Source of the DNA: Cyanobium sp. Cruz-8D1 | GTDB lineage: Bacteria > Cyanobacteriota > Cyanobacteriia > PCC-6307 > Cyanobiaceae | Assembly (NCBI RefSeq): GCF_024345975.1 | Contig: NZ_JAGQCD010000010.1 | Span: 1 to 64,000, forward strand | Direction of reading: 5' to 3' | DNA length: 64,000 nucleotides | Program-made: the position numbers and the translations under genes | The notes under the pieces: generated by a model | What the model was told of the DNA's origin: nothing | Seen by the model: only the letters and a program-made list of their open reading frames with translations | The model's database searches: none | Shown: positions 1-11,846 of the stretch, piece after piece | Layout: each line of letters starts with the position of its first letter | How positions within the stretch are numbered: position 1 is the stretch's first letter

Positions 1-510
1 GAACGCTCCGGCGTCAGCGCCCCGGTGGGGCGGGATCTGCTGGAGCTGGAGAACCAGTTGTTCCATCAGTGGCATCGCTGGCGAGACGGCGAGATCGACA
101 GGCAAGAACTGCAATCCCTCACGGCGCCGATCCGCCAGGCCTTTGAGAGCAAGCTGCAGGAAGCGAGCGATCTGGGCTTTCACAAAGGGGAGAAGACTCC
201 CTGGGCCACCACGGTGCGCACCTGCCGGCAGATCCTCAACCTGGCGCCAGCCCTATGGACCTTCCTGGAGCATCCCGATGTGGAGCCGACGAACAACGCT
301 GCGGAACGGGCGCTCAGACCGGCAGTGATCCACCGAAAACTCAGTTACGGCGTCCAATCTCGGCGGGGTGGCCTTTGCCAAAGTCGTCTATTGACAGTGA
401 CCACAAGCCTGAAACAGCAGGGCCGTGACGTGTTGGAATTTCTGGTTGAGGCATGGAATGCCCATTACCACGGACTGCCGGCGCCAAGCCTGCTGCCTCC
501 AGCAAAATAG
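1..510 (+). CDS. IS66-family transposase, C-terminal fragment cut by the window edge
   Basis: The frame is open from the first base, so the gene begins before the window and only its last 169 codons are seen; it ends in TAG. The visible part matches the end of the IS66 DDE transposase domain: the block NNAAERALRP carries the last catalytic glutamate of the family, followed by the Gly-rich stretch QSRRGG and a closing helix ending EAWNAHYHG. Family members are about 500 residues and normally travel with two small accessory ORFs, which would lie outside. I did not recognise a terminal inverted repeat in the 120 bp downstream. A second transposase relic and an integrase relic follow, so this belongs to an accessory segment. 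Activity of the full copy cannot be judged here. Confidence 0.85.
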   Translation, partial: ERSGVSAPVGRDLLELENQLFHQWHRWRDGEIDRQELQSLTAPIRQAFESKLQEASDLGFHKGEKTPWATTVRTCRQILNLAPALWTFLEHPDVEPTNNAAERALRPAVIHRKLSYGVQSRRGGLCQSRLLTVTTSLKQQGRDVLEFLVEAWNAHYHGLPAPSLLPPAK

Positions 511-631
511 GGCACAGGCAGAGCGACCAGAGCAGTGAAAGGTGCGCGCTGAGAGGCTGAGCAAATGAGCTGTGCATCAATCATGAAGTGGTGACTGCCT
601 ACGTCATGTCAAGCTCAGGCCGGCACACCCC

Positions 632-1324
632 GTGAACGGTTACCTTGTGGAGATGATCCGCATGTTCAAAGTGGCCAAGGATTCGGCCACCGCGAACCGC
701 ACCGCGGCTCTCAATCAGCTGCACGCCATCGTGGTGACGGCGCCGGCAGCGTTGCGGGAACGGCTGCAGCGGCTCAAGAAAAAGGAGCTGGTCGAAAGCT
801 GCGCAGGCCTGCGTTCTGGCGAGATCACCACCCCTCTGGCGGCCGCCAAAATGACCCTGCGCACCCTCGCCCGTCGCATCCAGCAGCTGGATCAGGAGCT
901 CAAGGAAACCATCGCGCAGCTGGATCAGCTGACGATGCAGCTGTGCCCCGAGCTGCGCAACACCTACGGCATCGGTGTGGACATCAGCGCCACCCTGGTC
1001 GTGGCCGTCGGCGACAACCAGGAACGGATGAAATCCGAGGCCTCATTCGCTGCTCTCTGTGGCGTCAATCCCCTGCCGGCCAGCTCCGGCAAGGTGGTGA
1101 GGCACCGGCTGAACCGCAGCGGTAACCGCCAGGCCAACTGCGCTCTGCACCGCATCGTCGTCTGCCGGTTGCAGCGGCACCAGCAGACCAAGGAATACGT
1201 GGAGCGACGGACGGCAGAGGGCCGCTCAATGAAGGAGATCATTCGCTGCCTCAAGCGGTTTGTCGCCCGCGAGGTGTTCGGCATCCTGCGTGGGGGGCCC
1301 GCAGTGCGTACAGCAGCGGCCTGA
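632..1324 (+). pseudogene. IS110-family transposase, 5'-truncated
   Basis: The 230-residue frame corresponds to the C-terminal half of an IS110/IS1111 transposase (Transposase_20 domain). Diagnostic segments are YGIGVDISATLVVAVGD, then FAALCGVNPLPASSGK and RLNRSGNRQANCALH, and a tail with KRFVAREVFGIL. The family is normally 330-400 residues with an N-terminal RuvC-like DEDD catalytic domain; that half is missing. The frame is open back to 587, where a TGA closes it, and the first usable start is GTG at 632 with no clear ribosome site. I therefore call it a remnant that cannot transpose. The piece between 511 and 631 shows no gene. What truncated it is not visible, though the IS66 end just upstream makes insertion or deletion by that element plausible. 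Confidence 0.8.
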
Positions 1325-1352
1325 TGCGTAGAGGCTGCAGCAGCCCAGGCTC

Positions 1353-1401
1353 CCGCCAGATCCGTTGCCTGCCGCTCCACGGCGGGCAACGGATCTGGCG
1401 G
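1353..1401. repeat. 49-bp near-perfect hairpin after the IS110 relic
   Basis: Bases 1353-1374 pair with 1380-1401 to give a 22-bp stem (21 Watson-Crick pairs and one G-T at 1370/1384) around a 5-base loop CTCCA. The left arm begins CCGCCAGATCCGTTGCC. It lies between the end of the IS110 remnant (+) and the end of the next gene (-). No T-tract follows on either strand, so it is not a classical intrinsic terminator, though it could stop both convergent transcripts as structured RNA. A transposon-derived palindrome or a REP-like element are alternatives. I saw no second copy elsewhere in the window. Confidence 0.75.
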
Positions 1402-1421
1402 AACGAGAGCCGGTCGGCGGT

Positions 1422-2069
1422 TCAGCTGTCAACGGGGATCAGCACGTCGAGTAGCTCGGTCCGCCGCGACTGGCCTGGCTGCTCTGGCACGACCAGAACG
1501 ACGGCCTTGGCCTCGATCAGATCGCTGTCGTCAGCCGTGGCCTCGCCATCGGCCTCCCAGCTCTCCAGCGCCGCATCCAGCCAGCGGGTCTTTGTTTCCA
1601 GGAAGGCGATTGCCTCGTCGGGGCTCCAGCGGGCCTCGCTGCCGCGACAGGGATAGCGCTGCAGAAGCTCCAGGATCCCGATCTCCTGCAGCTCAGGGGT
1701 GCCGGTGGGATCGCGCACCAGAACGGTGTCGGCATCGGTGGCGTTGTCGATCAGCTTCTGGATGTCGCTGCGATCGTCGTCATCTTCCAGCTCCTGCCAG
1801 TCCAGGAGATTCAGCGCCCTCTCCTGAACGGCCTGCACATCGACCACAGGAATCTGCCGAGCGGCGCTCCCTTGGCTGGGATCGTCGGCCAGGTGCAGCA
1901 AGCCATCAGCCGCTCTGCAGATCTGCTGCAGCGACAGCGATGAACCGAGAGCGGCCATCACACACTCAGCCAGCTCATCCAGAGAGAGATCAGCACCGTC
2001 TTCTGCCCCACGGACTTGGTCGATGGCCTCCCAGAGCGGCAGCTCAGTGGAGGTGGTGACGTGTTCCAC
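1422..2069 (-). CDS. acidic protein of unknown function beside the integrase relic
   Basis: This 215-residue protein was not recognised. It is rich in Asp, Glu and Leu, has no membrane span or signal peptide, and shows no catalytic motif I can name. An acidic run (LEDDDDRSD, about residues 93-101) divides an N-terminal helical half from a C-terminal half with WSPDEAIAFLETKTRWLDAALESW in two pieces of helix. The ATG at 2069 lies inside the 3' end of the integrase frame, a 26-bp overlap on the same strand, so the two were probably transcribed together. It is the only intact-looking cargo gene in the island end seen here. An accessory or phage-type role is inferred from position alone. Confidence 0.55.
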   Translation of the reverse strand: MEHVTTSTELPLWEAIDQVRGAEDGADLSLDELAECVMAALGSSLSLQQICRAADGLLHLADDPSQGSAARQIPVVDVQAVQERALNLLDWQELEDDDDRSDIQKLIDNATDADTVLVRDPTGTPELQEIGILELLQRYPCRGSEARWSPDEAIAFLETKTRWLDAALESWEADGEATADDSDLIEAKAVVLVVPEQPGQSRRTELLDVLIPVDS

Positions 2070-3285
2070 GGCGTGGCCAGCGCTGGTTCACGGCCATCGT
2101 GCCCGAGCTGGTCAGATCCGGCTTCTCCTGACCCATCAGACGAAGGGCACCCAGGGCTTGACAGTCCATAGGAGTGTCATCGGCATGGGCCAGCTGTTTT
2201 TCGGTCACCACCCTGGGAATCTTGAGCTGCTCGATGCAGTTGGTCTGCCCGAAGCCCCTGAATCCATGGGGTGTCTGCCGCCCCTGGAAGCCCATGCGCC
2301 GCAGCAGCATCGAGAGGCAGCCATTGCTCATCACCCGCAGTCCTCCATTGCCGCGGTGGTTGGGGGTGTGAAAGACCAGATCGGTGTGGCCACTGATCGG
2401 CCGCTGTAGGTCAAACAACAACCGCGCCTGCGAGGAGAGCGGCACGATGTAACGAACGCGGGTCTTCATGCGTTCAGCGGGAATGATCCACTGACGACCT
2501 TCGATATCAACTTCGCTCCAACGGGCTTCCCGGAGTTCACTGGGCCGCACCAGGGTGAGCATCATCAGGCGCAGGGCGATGAAGCTGCTGCGCTCGGCCA
2601 GGCGTTGACGCTCAAAGCGATCGATCACCTCCAAGAGCTCGGGCAGCTCCACCCAGCTGATGCGGTGGTAGTGGGTGACGCGGGTGGCGGCGATGACCTT
2701 GCGGGCTTTGACGGCGGGGTTGTCCTGCCGAAGTTCAAGATCGACGGCGTGCTCGATCACGCAACGGGTGACGTCGTTGCAGCGACGGGCCTGTTCATGG
2801 GCGCTCCTGGCGAGGATGGGTGCAAGTAGGCGGGTTTCAATGTCGCTGCGGGTGATCGCCTCGATTTCCAGTTGACCCAGTGCCGGGATCACGAAGTGAT
2901 CAAGTTTCTCCCGCATGTCCCTGCAATAGCGGGGGCTCCAGCTGGCGCTGTGATGCTCAAACAAGGCCTGGGCGATCTGGACGAAAGGTCGACTGCTGAT
3001 TTCGACCTGCTTGCGCTGCTGAGTTGGTGCCTGGGTGCGTGGATCGACGCCGGCTTTGATCCAGGTGTTCAGCTCTAGGGCCTGCTTGCGGGCATCGGCG
3101 AGCCGCATGGCCGGGTAAGCGCCAATGGTGAAGGTGCGGCGTGCTCCCTGCCAGCGGTAGTTCTTGCGCCAGGTCTTGGAGCCGGAGCGTGCCACCCAGA
3201 GGTAGAGGTCGTCCCGGTCGTGGTGCTTGGTGCCCGGGCGTTCCGGGTCGGGCCGCAGGGCCTAGATTGACTTGTCACTGAGCAT
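2044..3285 (-). pseudogene. tyrosine integrase of the P4/DUF4102 type, broken at both ends
   Basis: The frame encodes a site-specific integrase: an N-terminal arm domain (DDLYLWVARSGSKTWRKNYR, TIGAYPAMRLADARKQA), a core-binding domain, and a catalytic domain with the first Arg in VRPSELREARW, Lys in MKTRVRYIVPLS, and the HGFRG and QLAHAD boxes. Two defects are visible. The natural ATG at 3285 starts MLSDKSI and codon 8 (3264-3262) is TAG, after which the family sequence continues; the first downstream start is GTG at 3195, which would remove part of the arm domain. After QLAHAD the sequence diverges from the family and no Tyr nucleophile is found in any frame. It sits 223 bp from the 3' end of tRNA-Ser, the standard arrangement for tRNA-targeted islands. 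I judge it inactive. Confidence 0.8.
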
Positions 3286-3611: not shown

Positions 3612-4793
3612 CTACAGCCGGTTGGGCAGCCCCTTGCAACCTCCAGGCAGGGTCTGGCGGGAACGGGCGCCTGACCAGGCCGCCAGGTAGGCGCGATTGT
3701 CCGGATCCAGCTGGCGCACACCGCTGAGATTGACGTTCTCCACCTGGGCCCCGGTGCCGGCGCCTACGGCGTGGTCCGACTCCATCTGGGCCTGGTGCGG
3801 GGTGGCCTCCAGGGCGTCGCCATAGAAGAACCGAGCGGCCTGCAGACAGGCGCCCTGGAGATTGGCACCAGCCAGATTCACCGCCGCCAGATTGGCCTCG
3901 GCCAGGTCGGCGCCGGAGAGATCGGCGCCGGAGAGATCAGCGCCGTTGAAGTCGATGGCGCGCAGGTCGGTGCCGGCAAGGTCGGCGCCCCGCAGCATGC
4001 TCTGCAGGCGGATCACAGGAACTCCCCGCAAGCGGTCCTCCTCGTAGCTGCCTTCGCCGTCGAGGATGGCGCGCCCCAGGCGCTGGTCACGCCGCAGGGG
4101 GGTGAGCAACCTGGCGTGGGAAAGAAAGCGCAGGATCCTGGCCTTGCCGTCAGCATCGATGCTGCTCAGAACGGCGGCCAGGCGGCCCTCCGCCAGCATC
4201 CGCTCCAGGGGCCAGTCCTCCAGCAAGCCCTCCTCGTCACTGATCAGCTCGGAGATGCCATGGATGAAGCTGTCGATGGTCTGGGCCTGGGTGATGCGGT
4301 TCTGCTGGGTGGTGAGACGCTGATCCACCATCACCTGGCGCCAGGCGATCATCAGAGCGACCAGGGCCACCAGGATCTGGCCGACGGCACCGATGACCCC
4401 CTCCCCGAAGGCGCCGATCGCCTCCCAGTCCCCATTGCGGTAGATCGCCAGCAGCGGGTCGAGCCAGCCAAGGGCCAGGGGGATCGACAGCAGGGCCAGG
4501 ACCAGGGACAGGGCCGCCACCAGCCGAACGGTGGGGGGGTCCTCAAGGTGCCGAACCAGAACCTGCCAGAGGGGTGGGAGCAACTGTCGCAGGGCCAGGG
4601 CCACGGTCAGCAGGGCCGCCGGCAGGGCCAGCCAGGCCAGTCCCAGCAGCAGGGCCGCCTGCAGGATCAGGAGCGTCAGCAGCAGCTGCAGACCGGCCCC
4701 ATGGCGCAGACGCGTCCAGGGACCTCCAGCCCGCAGGGCCAGGGGCGGGGAAGCCGCCGCGGCGAAGGAGCGATCGTCCGGTTTCGTGGTCAT
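3612..4793 (-). CDS. membrane protein with C-terminal pentapeptide repeats
   Basis: This 393-residue protein has about four hydrophobic spans in its first 155 residues (roughly 35-53, 54-70, 90-113 and 131-151), a soluble middle part (HGISELISDEEGLLEDWPLERML), and then a run of pentapeptide repeats of the A(D/N)LXX type from about residue 265 to 320, for example GADLSGADLSGADLAEANL. Such repeats form a right-handed beta-helix, usually for protein contacts. The ATG at 4793 overlaps the stop of the upstream Ca2+/H+ antiporter by 4 bp (ATGA), so the two are translationally coupled and may work together at the same membrane. The molecular function is unknown. The gene ends with TAG 16 bp from the tRNA-Ser 5' end. 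Confidence 0.8.
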   Translation of the reverse strand: MTTKPDDRSFAAAASPPLALRAGGPWTRLRHGAGLQLLLTLLILQAALLLGLAWLALPAALLTVALALRQLLPPLWQVLVRHLEDPPTVRLVAALSLVLALLSIPLALGWLDPLLAIYRNGDWEAIGAFGEGVIGAVGQILVALVALMIAWRQVMVDQRLTTQQNRITQAQTIDSFIHGISELISDEEGLLEDWPLERMLAEGRLAAVLSSIDADGKARILRFLSHARLLTPLRRDQRLGRAILDGEGSYEEDRLRGVPVIRLQSMLRGADLAGTDLRAIDFNGADLSGADLSGADLAEANLAAVNLAGANLQGACLQAARFFYGDALEATPHQAQMESDHAVGAGTGAQVENVNLSGVRQLDPDNRAYLAAWSGARSRQTLPGGCKGLPNRL

Positions 4794-5905
4794 GGCAGGG
4801 GGCTGGTCTGGAAGAAAAAGCCAGCCGCGAGGATGGCGTAGGCCGCCAGCAGGAGCACGCCCTCGAGCCAGTCGGAGCGTCCATCGAGGCTGACCAGATT
4901 GCTCACCAGAACGGCCGTGGCCACCGCGACCACCTCATAGACGTTGAAGCTGAGATCGAGGGGATGGCCGAGCAGGGGAGCCACCAGCAGCAGCACCGGC
5001 ACCACCAGCAGACCCACCAGCAGGGTGGAGCCGAGGGCCACCGACACGGCCAGGTCCATCTTGTCCTTTCGCGCCATGCTCACCGCTGTGAGGTACTCGG
5101 CGACACCGCCCAGCAGGGGCAGCAGCACCACGCCAGTGAACAGGGCCGAGAAACCGAGGGATTCGGTGACGGTCTCCACGACGCCGACGAAGAGCTCGGA
5201 GGCATAGGCCAGCCCCACGGTGGCCGCCAGCAGCACGGCGACCCAGGGAAGCAGGGGCGGCCGGTGGGCACGTTCGGCGCCTTGGCCGGGATCCTCAGCA
5301 TCGACGGTCAGGTCCGCTTCAGCCACCGCGTAAAGCGTGCGATGGGTTTTCAGAGAGAACAGCAGCGTGAGGCCATAGACAGCTAGCAGCACCCAGGCCA
5401 CAAACAGCGAAAAGGACTCGGCGGCGGCCGCGTCCAGCCCCCCGGCCTCTCCCCCCACCATCCCCCGCAGGCTCGGGATCAGAATCGCCAGAACGGCCAG
5501 GGTCATGGCCGAGCCGTTGACCCGTGCCACCACGGGCTGGAAACGTTGCTCACTGCGCCCGAGGCCCCCCACCAGCATCGACAGACCCAGCGCCAGCAGC
5601 AGGTTGGCCATGACCGTGCCGGTGATGCTGGCCTTGACGATGTCCACCAGGCCGGCCCGCAGGGCCGCGATGGCAATGATCAGCTCGGTGGCGTTGCCGA
5701 ACAGGGCATTGAGCAGGGCCCCGATCGAGGGACCGAGGGTGAGGGACAGCTCCTCGGTGGCGGTGCTCAGCAGGATCGCCAAGGGGACGATCGAAAGGAT
5801 CGAGGTGACGAAGACGATCCCATCGCCCCACTGAAACCGGTCAGCGGCCGCTGCGACCGGCAGCATCGCCAGCAGGCCGATGGCGATACGCAAGCGAGCG
5901 GACAT
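4790..5905 (-). CDS. cax: Ca2+/H+ antiporter of the CaCA/CAX family
   Basis: At 371 residues this is the usual size for a bacterial CAX exchanger, which exports Ca2+ from the cytoplasm against protons. Around ten to eleven membrane spans are visible. The two conserved alpha-repeat motifs are present: LFGNATELIIAIAALRAG near residue 75, followed by SITGTVMANLLLALGLSML, and the second copy with GGVAEYLTAVSMARKDKMDLAVSVALGSTL near residue 270. Both contain the acidic residue (Glu) expected to bind the cation. A hydrophilic acidic loop (AEADLTVDAEDPGQGAE) separates the halves. The start ATG at 5905 is the first in frame. It heads a two-gene operon with the pentapeptide membrane protein. Ion selectivity cannot be read with certainty from sequence. 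Confidence 0.9.
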   Translation of the reverse strand: MSARLRIAIGLLAMLPVAAAADRFQWGDGIVFVTSILSIVPLAILLSTATEELSLTLGPSIGALLNALFGNATELIIAIAALRAGLVDIVKASITGTVMANLLLALGLSMLVGGLGRSEQRFQPVVARVNGSAMTLAVLAILIPSLRGMVGGEAGGLDAAAAESFSLFVAWVLLAVYGLTLLFSLKTHRTLYAVAEADLTVDAEDPGQGAERAHRPPLLPWVAVLLAATVGLAYASELFVGVVETVTESLGFSALFTGVVLLPLLGGVAEYLTAVSMARKDKMDLAVSVALGSTLLVGLLVVPVLLLVAPLLGHPLDLSFNVYEVVAVATAVLVSNLVSLDGRSDWLEGVLLLAAYAILAAGFFFQTSPLP

Positions 5906-6059
5906 GGAGCAGCGCCAACAGCGTGACTCATTGTGACCGACTGTTGACCAGCGGGGCCATGGCCAGGGGCGCCATCAACGTGAACACACCAGAAATGGGT
6001 GGTGCCAACTCCCTGCACCGTCGTGCTGTAGACGGCACATCAGGACCTTTCGTCCCAGA

Positions 6060-7367
6060 ATGTCTGCAGCAGCATTCTTCTGTTTGCCCGACACCCTGCA
6101 GGCCTCCATGGGCCCAAAGAATCCCCAGGCAATGACGCTCCAAGTCCTGCCACCTGATGCCGGGGAGTCCGAACCCAACACCAACATCGAGAACAAGCCA
6201 CACAGACAGCATCCGCCATCGAGAAGAACGGTGGCCTCCATTCAGCGCGTCTTCACTCTCATTGCCATTGTCAATGGGCTCGTTTTGCTGTATTTGGTCG
6301 TTGCGGCTATCCAGCTGCTGATGGTTTCTGGTGCCCGATCAGCGGAGATCTATGTCTCACTGATTCTCACCCTGCTACTGGTCATCCTGGCGGTCATCTC
6401 TTATCAGATCATCACCAGGAGGATCGTCCGTCCGATCGCTCGACTGGTCCGCGAAGCCAGTGAGATCGAGAGCGGTGACAGGACCAGCCTGCTGACGATC
6501 AGAAGCAACGATGAAATCTCGAAGCTTGCCCAGACCTTCAACATGGTGCTCGTCAAGATGCGGCAGGCACTCATGGATGGAGAAGCCAGCAATCAGCAAT
6601 TGCTGGAAGCTAATCGACAGATCGAAGCTTCCATCAACTACGCCGGGCTGCTGCAGAAATCGATCCTTCCGGATCGCCAGCTCCAGGACACCTTCGGCAG
6701 CAATCACTTCATCCTCTGGCTGCCCCGCGACACGGTGGGAGGTGACTACTACATCTTCCACTCGGAAGGCGGGCACTGCCTCGCTGGGGTGGCCGACTGC
6801 GCTGGGCACGGGGTGGCAGGGGCCATGATGACCATGCTCGCCAGGGCGGGAATTGATCGTTCGATCATGGAGGTGGGGATCACCTCCCCAGCCGCCATCC
6901 TGAGCTGCACCGATACGGCCATGCGGACCCTGCTGCATGGGGCCAAGACGAGCAAGTCCATCGCGACCAGCATGGACATTGGACTCGCGCGCCTTGATCT
7001 TGAATCCAGAACACTTAGATTTGCTGGCGCAAAAATCAGTCTCTATTGGACTGATGGGCAAACCATGCACATGCTCAGGGGAGACCATCGGGCGATCTGT
7101 GATCAACGCGTCGGCGCCTACACGGACCACGACATACCGTTGTTGCCGGACTTCACCTACTACCTGACCACCGATGGTCTGCTCGATCAATCAGGAGGCG
7201 AAGATGGTTTCTCCCTGGGCACCCAGCAATTCAAGGAGTGGCTGATTCAGCTGGCGCGCCAACCCCTGGAACACCAGCGTCAAGCCTTGGCCGATGCGCT
7301 GGAAGAGTTTCGTGGACGTCACCCGCAGCGGGACGACATCACGATCCTTTCCTTCCGCTTCTCCTAG
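6060..7367 (+). CDS. siaA: SiaA-like membrane PP2C/SpoIIE-type protein phosphatase
   Basis: A 435-residue HAMP-PP2C phosphatase. Two membrane spans (about 66-90 and 97-118) flank a loop of only a few residues, then a HAMP domain (about 118-172), a coiled-coil linker and a SpoIIE-type PP2C domain (about 195-435). Metal-binding acidic residues are seen in VGGDYYIF, VADCAGHGVAGA, TTDGLLD and RDDITIL. In Pseudomonas aeruginosa the homologue SiaA removes the phosphate from SiaC and so turns on c-di-GMP synthesis; it has a large periplasmic sensor that is absent here. It is the first gene of siaABCD. The start is uncertain: ATG 6060 gives the longest form, and ATG 6108 or 6132 also keep both spans. 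G+C is low (29 of 60 bases at 6241-6300). Confidence 0.88.
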   Translation: MSAAAFFCLPDTLQASMGPKNPQAMTLQVLPPDAGESEPNTNIENKPHRQHPPSRRTVASIQRVFTLIAIVNGLVLLYLVVAAIQLLMVSGARSAEIYVSLILTLLLVILAVISYQIITRRIVRPIARLVREASEIESGDRTSLLTIRSNDEISKLAQTFNMVLVKMRQALMDGEASNQQLLEANRQIEASINYAGLLQKSILPDRQLQDTFGSNHFILWLPRDTVGGDYYIFHSEGGHCLAGVADCAGHGVAGAMMTMLARAGIDRSIMEVGITSPAAILSCTDTAMRTLLHGAKTSKSIATSMDIGLARLDLESRTLRFAGAKISLYWTDGQTMHMLRGDHRAICDQRVGAYTDHDIPLLPDFTYYLTTDGLLDQSGGEDGFSLGTQQFKEWLIQLARQPLEHQRQALADALEEFRGRHPQRDDITILSFRFS

Positions 7368-7371
7368 GAGG
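7366..7371 (+). promoter_or_regulatory. consensus Shine-Dalgarno AGGAGG for the 26-codon ORF
   Basis: AGGAGG at 7366-7371 overlaps the siaA stop codon (TAG 7365-7367) and is 7 bases from the ATG at 7379. It is one of the strongest ribosome sites in the window, where most genes have weak or none. It fits the small ORF, not siaB, whose ATG lies 85 bases away. Confidence 0.7.
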
Positions 7372-7378
7372 TTCCTAG

Positions 7379-7459
7379 ATGTCCCATCTGATCAACAACG
7401 CCCCCATGGCTGCTTTGACCATGACAACTCAAGTGGCCGCCTCGGACTTGAAGCGATGA
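7379..7459 (+). CDS. 26-residue ORF between siaA and siaB, overlapping the siaB start
   Basis: The frame runs from ATG 7379 to TGA 7457-7459 and encodes a 26-residue peptide beginning MSHLINNAPM and ending AASDLKR. It has a consensus Shine-Dalgarno at the right distance and its stop overlaps the siaB start codon in the arrangement ATGA (ATG 7456-7458). This is the classical layout for translational coupling, so the ORF may serve as a leader that delivers ribosomes to siaB, may encode a functional micropeptide, or both. I know of no homologue. It is too short for most gene callers. Evidence is the ribosome site and the overlap only; no conservation could be tested. Confidence 0.5.
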   Translation: MSHLINNAPMAALTMTTQVAASDLKR

Positions 7460-8004
7460 TCATCAGCACCACCAGCCTGATTTCGCTGAGAGAGTTTTTC
7501 AGCAATCATCAGATCCTCATCTGCTTCAACGGGCCCATCTCCACCAACGTGATTGGGGAAATCGGATCCGCTCTTAAGAAACACATTGAATCCAACCATG
7601 CTCCTGAACTGGAGGTGATGGATGTGTTCAGCGTCTATATCGAGATGAGTCAGAATATCAGGAATTATGCAACAAGCAACGGCTTCAGCGATTCCGAGTC
7701 CTCGGCCACGGTCGTCATTGCAGCCGTCGAGGCTGGCCATTACGCCGTGTGTGCAGGTAACCTCGTTGAGATGGAAGATGGTAAAGCCCTGCTGAAACGG
7801 ATCCACGAACTCGCAGACTGCGACAAGGCCCAGCTGAAGCTGCTCTACAAACAGCAGTTGCGCCAGCCCCACACCCAGACCCCTGGCCAGGGAGCCGGCC
7901 TAGGACTGATCGAAATCGCCAGGCGCTCGAGCCAACCCTTGGAGGCCTCCCTTGATCCCCTTGGACCAGGGCGTGCCTTCTTCAGCCTTCGGGCCATCAT
8001 CTGA
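7456..8004 (+). CDS. siaB: SiaB-family protein kinase (DUF6272)
   Basis: The 182-residue product matches the SiaB family, which in P. aeruginosa phosphorylates SiaC and so opposes SiaA. It has a GHKL-like ATP-binding fold: an N-box segment EMSQNIRNYA at residues 63-72 and a glycine-rich G-box GQGAGLGLIEIARRS at 144-158. The N-terminal segment LREFFSNHQILICFNGPIS is typical of the family. The start ATG at 7456 is chosen because the family sequence begins immediately after it and it overlaps the stop of the 26-codon ORF; the frame is open upstream to before 7294 but that part lies over siaA. siaC follows after 4 bp. No membrane span is seen, so it should be cytoplasmic. Confidence 0.85.
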   Translation: MIISTTSLISLREFFSNHQILICFNGPISTNVIGEIGSALKKHIESNHAPELEVMDVFSVYIEMSQNIRNYATSNGFSDSESSATVVIAAVEAGHYAVCAGNLVEMEDGKALLKRIHELADCDKAQLKLLYKQQLRQPHTQTPGQGAGLGLIEIARRSSQPLEASLDPLGPGRAFFSLRAII

Positions 8005-8008
8005 TCCC

Positions 8009-8404
8009 ATGAGCAGCAGCGAAGAACTCAATCTCTCTGTGCCAGGCTCTCAGTCCAGCCCATCGATTCAGGCGGATTGGAAAGCAGGAGTCGTCGTCAT
8101 GAGTGGCGAGTCGTATCCGGAGAATTCATTTGAGCTTTACGATCAGTTGATTCAATGGATTGAAGCCTACCTTTCAAGTGCCGAACATTCCCTTAGGTTG
8201 GAACTGCATTTGAATTATCTCAATACCAGCAGCATTCGATTCATGATCGATATTTTTGACTCGCTGCAAACAGCCTTTGAAAATGGGAAAGAAGTTTTGG
8301 TTCAGTGGATGTTTGACGACAGAAACCCACGCTCCGCCGAACTGGGCTCTGAGTTCAAGGAAGATTATACCTTTCCATTCTTGATTCTCTCTATCAACGC
8401 CTGA
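8009..8404 (+). CDS. siaC: SiaC-family phospho-switch protein (DUF1987)
   Basis: A 131-residue DUF1987/SiaC protein. In P. aeruginosa this small protein binds and activates the diguanylate cyclase SiaD when unphosphorylated, and SiaB phosphorylates a threonine to block this. The phosphosite context is conserved here: LNYLNTSSIRFMID, with Thr73 as the expected acceptor. The rest (SYPENSFELYDQLIQWIEAY in the N-terminal half, FPFLILSI at the end) fits the family. ATG 8009 is preferred over earlier starts because it follows the siaB stop by 4 bp and the family sequence starts after it. Base composition is strikingly low for this chromosome: 51 of 120 bases at 8101-8220 are G or C. Confidence 0.88.
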   Translation: MSSSEELNLSVPGSQSSPSIQADWKAGVVVMSGESYPENSFELYDQLIQWIEAYLSSAEHSLRLELHLNYLNTSSIRFMIDIFDSLQTAFENGKEVLVQWMFDDRNPRSAELGSEFKEDYTFPFLILSINA

Positions 8405-8405
8405 G

Positions 8406-9263
8406 ATGGTTGAGCCTTCCCTCCCAAAGCCTGACGATCAATTGGAACAGGAGGTGATGGCAATTCTAGCCGATCATCGGTATGACAATGATCCCATACG
8501 TCATCTACTTTCTCGCTTGTGGCATCGCATCGAAGAACAGGTTGATCGGCTGGAGAGGGTGGCTGACATCTCTGATCTTTACCAGTCGCATGTTCTCGAA
8601 AACAACCGCAGTCTAGCGAATCGCTACGAGAAACAATTGCGACAGATCAAACGTGTAGTTAGAATTTCAGACCTGTATCAGTCTTCGCTGAAGGAACTGA
8701 ATCTGTCGCTCTTTGAGGCCTCTACCCATGATTCACTGACGGGGGTTTCCAACCGACGTTTCATGGCAGAACGCTGCCTTGAGGAAGACCAGCGAGCCTC
8801 AAGACATGGCTCCACCTACTCGATGATCATTCTGGATGTGGATCATTTCAAATTGATCAACGACGAGTATGGCCATGCCACCGGAGATCTGATGCTGGTG
8901 GACCTCGTCAAGGCCCTCTCCAGCAGCTTGCGTCACTACGACATCATTGCCCGATGGGGAGGCGAAGAATTCATGGCCTTGCTGATTGATGCCGATCTTT
9001 CCACTGCCGAAATCGTGGCCAAGCGTATGTTGAGCAATATTCGTGATATGCGCGTTTCTATCGACGACATGGAATTGAATCTCACGGCCAGTTTGGGGCT
9101 TACCGAGCACAAGTCCGATGAAAATTACGACACCACTTTCCGTCGAGCTGACAAAGCCCTGCTCATGGCCAAGAACGGTGGCCGCGACAGGCTGGTGGTC
9201 ATCGACCCAGCCGACCCCCTCAGCCATCGGGAAATCAGCGCCTTGGCGGCTGGAACTGATTGA
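8406..9263 (+). CDS. siaD: SiaD-like diguanylate cyclase
   Basis: A 285-residue soluble GGDEF protein that should make cyclic di-GMP from two GTP. The active-site loop reads GGEEF (residues 185-189), preceded by the inhibitory I-site RHYD (176-179) at the canonical 5-residue spacing, so product inhibition is expected. Substrate-binding segments HDSLTGVSNRR and ILDVDHFKLINDEYGHATGD are intact. The N-terminal 105 residues are helical and contain a duplicated motif, RVADISDLYQS and RVVRISDLYQS (about 51-61 and 83-93), the likely SiaC-binding region by analogy with P. aeruginosa SiaD. It starts 1 bp after the siaC stop. No membrane span is present. The downstream 115 bp to nrdJ hold no gene. Confidence 0.92.
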   Translation: MVEPSLPKPDDQLEQEVMAILADHRYDNDPIRHLLSRLWHRIEEQVDRLERVADISDLYQSHVLENNRSLANRYEKQLRQIKRVVRISDLYQSSLKELNLSLFEASTHDSLTGVSNRRFMAERCLEEDQRASRHGSTYSMIILDVDHFKLINDEYGHATGDLMLVDLVKALSSSLRHYDIIARWGGEEFMALLIDADLSTAEIVAKRMLSNIRDMRVSIDDMELNLTASLGLTEHKSDENYDTTFRRADKALLMAKNGGRDRLVVIDPADPLSHREISALAAGTD

Positions 9264-9378
9264 GTCTTTTTTGGGCTGATCCATCCAGGGACTGCGCCTG
9301 AAACCTGAGCTAACCGCGCCGCTGGCCTGAGGAAAGGATTCCGTGCATCAAGATCGCTGCAGCCGCCAAGACCGCCGC

Positions 9379-11736
9379 TCAACTTTCTGGTTTGGCCAGA
9401 GGTAGGAGGCACTTATCAGAATCGCAACCGGCAGGACCGGCTTCAACCAGCTCACCTCCGTCATACTTCTGCAAAGCAAGGAAGAAATCGCCGCACTTAC
9501 GACGCTGCTCAACGTCACGGACCATCTGGTGATAGGTGGCCTGATCGATCGGCTCAAAGGGCAATCGGGGGAACGTGGCATTGGCATCAAACCGAGCCAG
9601 AAGAGCAGCGGAGATGTATCCCTCACCATTCTCGATGGTCTGGTGGATCTTGGCGGCCAGTGCCTCGATTTCATGCTCACGAAACTCAACAGTGGCCGAG
9701 GTGTTGTGGGTGGTGAAGTGGCGTTGCACCTGCATGTAGAAATCAAACTGGGCCAGGGCGGAGAAGTTGTTGATCTCCACCTGATCGGCACCAGGCAGGT
9801 TGGCCCAGCTGACCTCGGTGGGGATCTCCACCAGCCACTCGGTGCAGCGCGGATCAAACGGATCGTTCAGCAGACATCCCTGCTCGTCCTTATCCGACTG
9901 GGACGGAACGATCGCGTAGCCATAGTCCATGCAGGCGAGGGCCACCGGATCGTTCTTGCGGAAAGTGATGCGCCGGATGAATCGCTGGGCCTTGGGAGGA
10001 TGCCAGCCAGGGCTGGCGCCGGTGAGCAAGCTCTTGGTGCCAGCCGGTTGGACGGTGGTGCAGCGGTTGGGGCGACGCATGTCGTGGCGATCGCAGTAGT
10101 CCCACACCGCGTCGTGAACGCACTGCTTCCAGCGCGACAGATAGGCCGCTTCCTCGGCCCGGAAGGCACGCCCCTCTTCAGAGTCAGGACGGCCGGCTTC
10201 CCACCACTGCAGCCAAGGGGTGCCGAAGGCATGCACAAAGAAATCGAACAGACCGGTGAAGCTGACACCCACGATCGGATCCCAGGCCCGGCTCTGGCGG
10301 TAACGCTCGACCTCGAAGCGGTGATTCAGCAAGCAGGCCACGGCCAGGCCTCCGGCCTTGAAGGCATCCGCCTGGGCCTGGTGGTCGTGCGGATCGATCC
10401 GATTGAGGTGGATCTCGGCCAGGTTGCAGTGGAAGTCGGCCCCGAGAATCTCACCGCAAGGGTTGAGCCCGTAGCGGCCAAGCCGATGTTCGAGCTCGGC
10501 GTCGCTGATCTGGGGATGGTGCAGCTGCAGCCAGCGGCCGGCCTCCTGCTTGCCCTGGTCGCAGTAGAGGCCGATGAACTCGGTGCGCAACTCGGGGGTG
10601 GTGAGCAGGTCGGCATTGGAGCGGGCAATCGCCTCGGGGGCGAACTGGATGGCTCCCTCCCCCGACTGGAACTGCTTGTTGACCGCCTCTAACACCACCT
10701 CGCGGCTGGGCCGGACATGGAACACCCGGGTGTGGTTGGCCATGCGCAGGGCATCGCGCTCAGGGTCGATGCGCCAATTGCCCTGGGCATCCTGTTGCCA
10801 GAGGTTCTCCTTGGCACCGAGGGCGGAATCATCGTCGGCGCAGAACTGGCGCATGCCGGCGCTGCGGCGGATGTTGCCGGCCACGATGGTCACTGCCGCT
10901 TCATCGATCAGCAGACAGCACTCCACCGAGGTGAGCTGGCGGCCCCTGGCCTTGTTGAGGATCTGGGCGACACGGCCGTAGAGATCCCTCAACTTGACGG
11001 GGTTGGCCATGCCGCCAAAGCCCTTGAGGGTTTCACCCACGGGACGCACATCGGAGAGATCCACCGACACATGGACGGGGCCGTCAAAGCGCTCATCGCT
11101 GCAGAGTTTGAGCAGCAGCCGGTAGCTTTCCACCCAGCCGGCTCGGGTGTCGCCCACCCGCACGCTGACCTGCTGGCCCTCAATCCGGTGGCTGGTCTGC
11201 TGCTGACGAGAACCGATCGGCGTCACGCCGATGTCGGTGACCCCATCGATGACGAGGGTGTTGCGCACCTTCGGCAGACGGGCGATCAGGTGGGGCTCGA
11301 TGATGGCCCCGGTGCCACAGCCCATCATCGCCAGATCCATCATCAGGGCGAAGGCTTCCCAGTCCACCAGATTGGTGGACGTGCAGTTGTAGGCACCGGA
11401 GAAGTTTTCGGGTTGCTCGATCCACTCGGTGCCGCCGATCCACAGCCAGCGGCCGGACGGCAGCGCCATCTGATGGCGCTGCATGCGTCGGATCAGTTCC
11501 ACCTCGTCGGGTGCGAGGGAGCCGAGCACCCGCAGGCCTTCGAGGTTGCGCTCGGCCACCTCATGCCAACTCTCCCGACCGCCGCTGGCGGTCTTGCGGC
11601 TGTAAGTGCGATAGAAGACCGGATAGGCCGCCGGGGCGGTGAGCGGAAAATCAGCCGACGGCGTGATGATCCCTTCGCTTCCAGAGGATGTCGCCGCCGT
11701 GGCGGGCGTGGCTGGACGGGCGGCGGACAGGGTCAC
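9379..11736 (-). CDS. nrdJ: class II (adenosylcobalamin-dependent) ribonucleotide reductase
   Basis: A 785-residue monomeric class II reductase that makes deoxyribonucleotides using vitamin B12 without oxygen. Visible features are the substrate-site cysteines in [14 protein letters not shown] and [11 protein letters not shown], the catalytic NPCGEIL motif (Asn, Cys, Glu), the [12 protein letters not shown] loop, and the C-terminal redox pair CDSDKC. The order and size match the ribonucleoside-triphosphate reductase of marine and freshwater Synechococcus. The frame is open to 11805, but the first 23 codons look like upstream sequence; GTG at 11736 (VTLSAARP) is my preferred start, without a clear ribosome site. 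No cobalamin riboswitch was recognised in the 110 bp upstream. It is divergent from the methyltransferase gene. Confidence 0.9.
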
Positions 11737-11846
11737 GGTGGGTACGGCCGAGGCGTGCTGGAAACCATAACGCCACCTGTAGGGTCTGCAACGGCACCCT
11801 CCCACCAGCCACGGTGCCTACAGAGGCGAACTGGGAGGGTGGCCAG

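Follow-up and report, generated by a model that had tools for sequence, protein, structure and literature searches.

A SiaABCD-type c-di-GMP switch in Cyanobium: a probable single, ancient acquisition from a proteobacterium, inherited beside nrdJ

Introduction

How does a picocyanobacterium come to carry the four genes of a signaling module known from Pseudomonas aeruginosa, and can these genes still be expected to work as a switch? This question is raised by a stretch of 64,000 nucleotides from Cyanobium sp. Cruz-8D1 (RefSeq assembly GCF_024345975.1, contig NZ_JAGQCD010000010.1, positions 1 to 64,000; hereafter the window), in which siaA, siaB, siaC, and siaD occupy positions 6060-9263 and stand out by their low content of guanine plus cytosine (G+C). 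In short, we give a probability of about 0.82 to the following reading: the module works as a SiaABCD-type partner switch governing the activity of a diguanylate cyclase, and it was acquired once, anciently, from a proteobacterium and then inherited vertically with losses. The biochemical steps herein are taken over from work on P. aeruginosa. We start with the genes and their residues, move on to the membrane input and the origin of the module, and end with what it means for the family.

A complete module with conserved residues

In the window, the four genes are adjacent on one strand and follow the SiaABCD gene order:

6060-7367, plus strand: siaA, membrane HAMP-PP2C (SpoIIE-type) protein phosphatase of 435 amino acids (Pfam HAMP and SpoIIE matches)
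7456-8004, plus strand: siaB, SiaC threonine kinase (DUF6272) of 182 amino acids (NF038264 above cut-off)
8009-8404, plus strand: siaC, phospho-switch protein of 131 amino acids (PF09345 and NF038265 above cut-off)
8406-9263, plus strand: siaD, diguanylate cyclase of 285 amino acids with two ISDxYQ stalk motifs, GGEEF, and I-site (NF038266 above cut-off)

A first-pass annotation had recognized a complete siaABCD here, and the family models bear this out, as SiaB, SiaC, and SiaD all exceed their NCBIfam equivalog cut-offs (245 bits against 225, 187 against 150, and 302 against 290, respectively). SiaA scores 418 bits (E 6e-125) with NF038263, whose cut-off of 700 it misses since the match is confined to model positions 285-657 of 658. 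The solved structures nearest to the module proteins are those of P. aeruginosa (6k4e, 6kko, 6k4f, and 7e6g). SiaA shares 53% identity with the PP2C domain of 6k4e and all nine of the residues checked, SiaB shares 54% identity with 6kko_A, and SiaD finds its top structure match in 7e6g_A, with both ISDxYQ stalk repeats visible in the alignment.

To compare residues, we mapped them onto the published P. aeruginosa numbering, using the SiaC-SiaD contacts and mutants described there as a reference (PMC8457831; PMC7647112), and compared 28 cyanobacterial sequences. The phosphosite, Thr73 within YLNTSS, corresponds to T68 of P. aeruginosa SiaC, and the equivalents of Y65, N67, T68, and S69 are invariant (28/28). 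SiaC of the window matches P. aeruginosa at 12 of the 14 SiaD-contact residues checked, compared with 52% identity overall, and the SiaD equivalents of S82 and Q86, which receive SiaC T68, are kept in 27 of the 28 sequences. The catalytic and I-site residues of SiaD (D138, D155, E181, R170, D173, R201, and K250) are invariant (28/28), as are the equivalents of the PP2C metal and active-site residues of SiaA (D457, D474, G477, D600, G601, and D653; 28/28), whereas E61 of SiaB is present in the window and in 27/28 overall. The residues named at first pass are correct. PP2C metal residues, SiaB E61, Thr73 in YLNTSS, GGEEF, and I-site are all in place, and SiaD combines an active GGDEF motif (GGEEF) with its I-site and ISDxYQ stalk motifs. 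As the catalytic and phosphosite residues and most of the contact residues are kept, the switch chemistry is very probably retained in the cyanobacterial proteins.

The proposed switch and its c-di-GMP context

By analogy with P. aeruginosa, the switch would work as follows. In the off state, SiaB would phosphorylate SiaC at Thr73, by which SiaD would be kept inactive. In the on state, the membrane-bound HAMP-PP2C phosphatase SiaA would dephosphorylate SiaC, and unphosphorylated SiaC would bind the ISDxYQ repeats of the SiaD stalk, yielding active SiaD dimers that produce cyclic dimeric guanosine monophosphate (c-di-GMP). The product would in turn feed back on the I-site of SiaD (product inhibition). 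On this analysis, control of c-di-GMP is the best reading of the module, and through it the module may control cell-surface behavior.

The genome itself holds 19 GGDEF, 9 EAL, and 4 PilZ matches. Owing to the latter two, c-di-GMP can be degraded and read, and the 19 GGDEF matches rule out the idea of SiaD as the sole diguanylate cyclase of a reduced picocyanobacterium. Among genomes of the same genus, GGDEF/EAL/PilZ counts span 1/0/0 to 31/15/5. Genomes with siaC have higher medians of other matches than those without (GGDEF 17 versus 5, EAL 9 versus 3, and PilZ 6 versus 2; Mann-Whitney p 0.0007, 0.001, and 4e-5, respectively, uncorrected for relatedness), and two genomes without siaC reach 27-28 GGDEF matches.

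SiaA as a possible membrane sensor

For P. aeruginosa SiaA, the signal has been proposed to be carbon availability (PMC7647112) or a membrane perturbation induced by sodium dodecyl sulfate or cold, whereby direct membrane sensing is argued and the polar residues of the first transmembrane (TM) helix are proposed as the sensor (PMC12834913). Replacement of its first 336 residues abolishes the high biofilm formation at room temperature (PMC12834913).

Cyanobacterial SiaA lacks the periplasmic part of this N-terminal signal-sensing region, a point overlooked at first pass. In the window, its two TM helices (approximately residues 61-88 and 95-117) follow closely on each other, with no periplasmic domain in between. 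An AlphaFold model (mean predicted local distance difference test score 75.7), equally devoid of such a domain, runs from helix 61-88 over a six-residue turn to helix 95-137, a long signaling helix, and the PP2C domain. By simple hydropathy, the gap between the helices measures 11-18 residues in 27/27 measurable cyanobacterial SiaA, as opposed to 138-286 residues in 13 other bacterial homologs with a measurable helix pair. Among the sampled genomes, SiaA without a periplasmic domain was seen only in Cyanobium's family. Seven residues of TM1 (I61, Q62, F65, N72, L76, Y78, and L79) are invariant in 15 aligned sequences. Since a tight two-helix membrane hairpin is all that is left, the input of cyanobacterial SiaA most likely comes from within the membrane, as its physical state, or from a cytosolic partner, and not from a periplasmic ligand.

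A module built like SiaABCD might of course work differently: SiaC and SiaD may no longer form a cyclase switch, or SiaA may be constitutive, leaving a switch driven by SiaB. The absence of the sensor domain from all measurable cyanobacterial SiaA would fit such a change, as would the altered stalk contacts of SiaD and the frequent loss of the module. However, over deep divergence there is little or no variation in the catalytic, phosphosite, I-site, or core contact residues, and SiaA keeps its HAMP domain and the invariant TM1 residues, for which a constitutive enzyme has no obvious need. We consider an altered working unlikely.

Locus, phylogeny, and losses

The locus is framed by two markers:

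4790-5905, minus strand: cax, calcium/proton exchanger, upstream marker (TIGR00378 above cut-off)
9379-11805, minus strand: nrdJ-type adenosylcobalamin-dependent ribonucleoside-triphosphate reductase, downstream marker, convergent with siaD (TIGR02505 above cut-off)

At 25-3195, about 3 kb away from the module, the window also contains a patch of mobile elements: IS66 and IS110 transposase fragments together with a phage-type integrase. No Rfam elements were found in 5800-9500, nor did a promoter scan find a promoter-like site 5' of siaA.

The distribution of the family is patchy. Besides the genome under study, it occurs in 16 of 36 same-genus genomes and, more widely, in 21 of 201 sampled genomes of Cyanobium's family (6 of 59 genera). 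A phylum-wide sample of 386 yielded it only in same-genus genomes, and sampled cyanobacteria outside Cyanobium's family did not yield it at all. On a concatenated SiaABCD tree, all cyanobacterial modules form one clade (support 100), which joins some proteobacteria in a larger clade (also 100); other proteobacteria fall outside it, and Firmicutes relatives lie outside the proteobacterial SiaABCD. In nearly all copies the module adjoins the 3' end of nrdJ, including copies in which identity is as low as about 45-65% for SiaB, SiaC, and SiaD; among syntenic copies of divergent genera, SiaC identity goes down to about 53%. The siaABCD and nrdJ trees have 12 of 22 splits in common, compared with a maximum of 3 for shuffled labels. 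The module would thus have entered an ancestor within the picocyanobacterial family by a single ancient transfer from a proteobacterium, settled beside nrdJ, and been passed on vertically with repeated losses.

Traces of these losses are found at the same locus. In one genome (G002, L076:11480-12246), which the nrdJ tree places within the main clade, a deletion scar lies beside nrdJ: siaA residues 75-96 run directly into siaD at residue 50, and the siaD frame is broken. In another (G027, L079), the site is empty, and nrdJ is directly followed by cax and a pentapeptide gene. Given this scar and this empty site, the module is lost in several lineages. Two more copies, one with a split siaA and an in-frame stop within siaC (G250, L056) and one with a frame break in siaC (G081, L046), may reflect either decay in other lineages or sequence errors.

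Patchiness (21/201) and the few modules not seen beside nrdJ could also be explained by independent acquisitions in several genera, each landing at the nrdJ locus by chance. This is very unlikely in view of the cyanobacterial monophyly at a support of 100, the short-loop SiaA common to the cyanobacterial copies, and a common locus with a documented deletion scar.

Critically speaking, several observations weigh against a conserved switch descending from one old transfer. Four modules (L047, L050, L057, and L053, the last on a short contig) have no nrdJ in the stretch compared, and the nearest proteobacterial sister group is weakly resolved (support 64 and 70). The nrdJ comparison is not fully independent of local recombination because nrdJ is a neighbor, and it is compatible with exchange among members of the family at this site. 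On the side of function, SiaA falls short of its equivalog cut-off, and the SiaD stalk contacts are partly substituted (R74Q, R84L, and M88S).

Low G+C and the age of the module

The G+C of the module is 54.3%, in comparison with flanks of 5 kb at 66.0% and 65.4% and a value of 67.9% for the window; of 1216 equally long segments sampled at a step of 50, only 6 have so low a value. The G+C counts given at first pass (51/120 at 8101-8220 and 29/60 at 6241-6300) are exact, and the module is indeed low relative to its flanks. What these numbers were taken to mean, i.e., an acquisition by this genome, does not hold: in relatives, the four genes occupy this locus too and have the same low G+C, which is what the first pass itself had named as speaking against a recent transfer. 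In every compared copy where nrdJ was seen, G+C at third codon positions (GC3) is lower in the sia genes than in nrdJ: 0.54-0.71 versus 0.79 in the window, 0.39-0.51 versus 0.75 in L046, and 0.81-0.90 versus 0.93 in L051. A composition that is kept across such a long divergence is therefore not a clock of arrival. In the sampled beta- and gammaproteobacterial relatives, sia GC3 is high (0.82-0.94), which gives no indication of a low-GC donor, and here too siaC ranks lowest among the four genes in overall G+C.

That this genome or its close relatives acquired the module recently, its low G+C being the unameliorated composition of a donor, may be suggested by the 54.3% set in flanks of about 66% and by the transposase fragments and integrase about 3 kb off, but it is scarcely credible considering the locus and low GC shared by divergent genera (SiaC identity down to about 53%), the single old clade of the cyanobacterial modules, the GC3 of the proteobacterial relatives, and their equally low-ranking siaC. 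A recent transfer read from composition is rejected on account of the syntenic low-GC copies. Of the horizontal acquisition proposed at first pass, a foreign origin is supported at depth, with the cyanobacterial clade nested among proteobacterial SiaABCD and none in the sampled cyanobacteria beyond the family, whereas a recent date is not. The module is an old inherited possession of the picocyanobacterial family, not a recent import.

A candidate translated spacer between siaA and siaB

The gap between phosphatase and kinase gene contains one more candidate feature:

7379-7459, plus strand: candidate translated-spacer mini open reading frame (mini-ORF) of 26 codons; a Shine-Dalgarno-like AGGAGG lies at the siaA stop, and the TGA overlaps the siaB ATG

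A coupled frame of 25-35 codons is present in 17/17 loci of the main clade and the sister genus g46; in L025 it stops one codon earlier, as TGATG. Substitutions show no bias over the codon positions (5-5-5 between L024 and L026, and 11-10-12 between the window and L022), and therefore the peptide is not under visible constraint. Together with the low peptide identity, this rules out a conserved peptide. In a single sequence, such a frame would be open by chance with a probability of 0.24-0.61, which we estimate to give roughly 1e-4 when about eleven divergent groups are taken as independent. This open-frame argument is weakened by the siaB frame, which in most loci likewise runs through the gap without a stop. 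The case for the mini-ORF rests on its start, stop overlap, and length pattern, and less on the open frame. Judging from this arrangement, it may couple the translation of siaA and siaB, fixing the phosphatase/kinase ratio.

Tentatively, one could go further and picture SiaA as a minimal sensor that reads the membrane state via its hairpin with the invariant N72 of TM1, isolating the intramembrane mode of sensing that has been suggested for P. aeruginosa SiaA, in combination with a translated spacer of free sequence that couples phosphatase and kinase synthesis. We regard this as a possibility worth stating, though a doubtful one.

Comparison with known systems

The closest reference is P. aeruginosa SiaABCD, known from biofilm formation and aggregation. 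Both systems share the gene order, the four families, the phosphosite, the PP2C metal site, the catalytic Glu of SiaB, most SiaC-SiaD contacts, GGEEF, and the I-site (46-54% identity). Besides the periplasmic part of SiaA, they differ in the candidate siaA-siaB mini-ORF of the cyanobacterial module. Azoarcus, Aromatoleum, Verticiella, and related beta- and gammaproteobacteria (L035-L037 and L101) have the same four-gene order with 38-57% identity, but their SiaA has 280-286 residues between the TM helices and their genes are high in G+C.

Cyanobacteria also encode the slr1658/slr1659 regulators (NF047703 and NF047705), which are remotely related to SiaB and SiaC at the superfamily level (E 0.003-0.004). 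With about 17 bits against cut-offs of 100, these are not the same family. The HsbA-HsbD and BgrV-BgrR switches likewise control a diguanylate cyclase through a STAS-like binding partner, which, by its description, belongs to another family (PMC8457831).

Significance for the picocyanobacterial family

The open-access literature searched holds no report of SiaABCD in cyanobacteria, which makes this, as far as that literature shows, its first description there. The case also serves as a reminder that a low-G+C gene cluster is not necessarily a recent import. Within the picocyanobacterial group, c-di-GMP networks vary strongly among close relatives. Finally, the question of what SiaA senses meets a natural experiment here: a monophyletic lineage with the complete switch but without the periplasmic domain.

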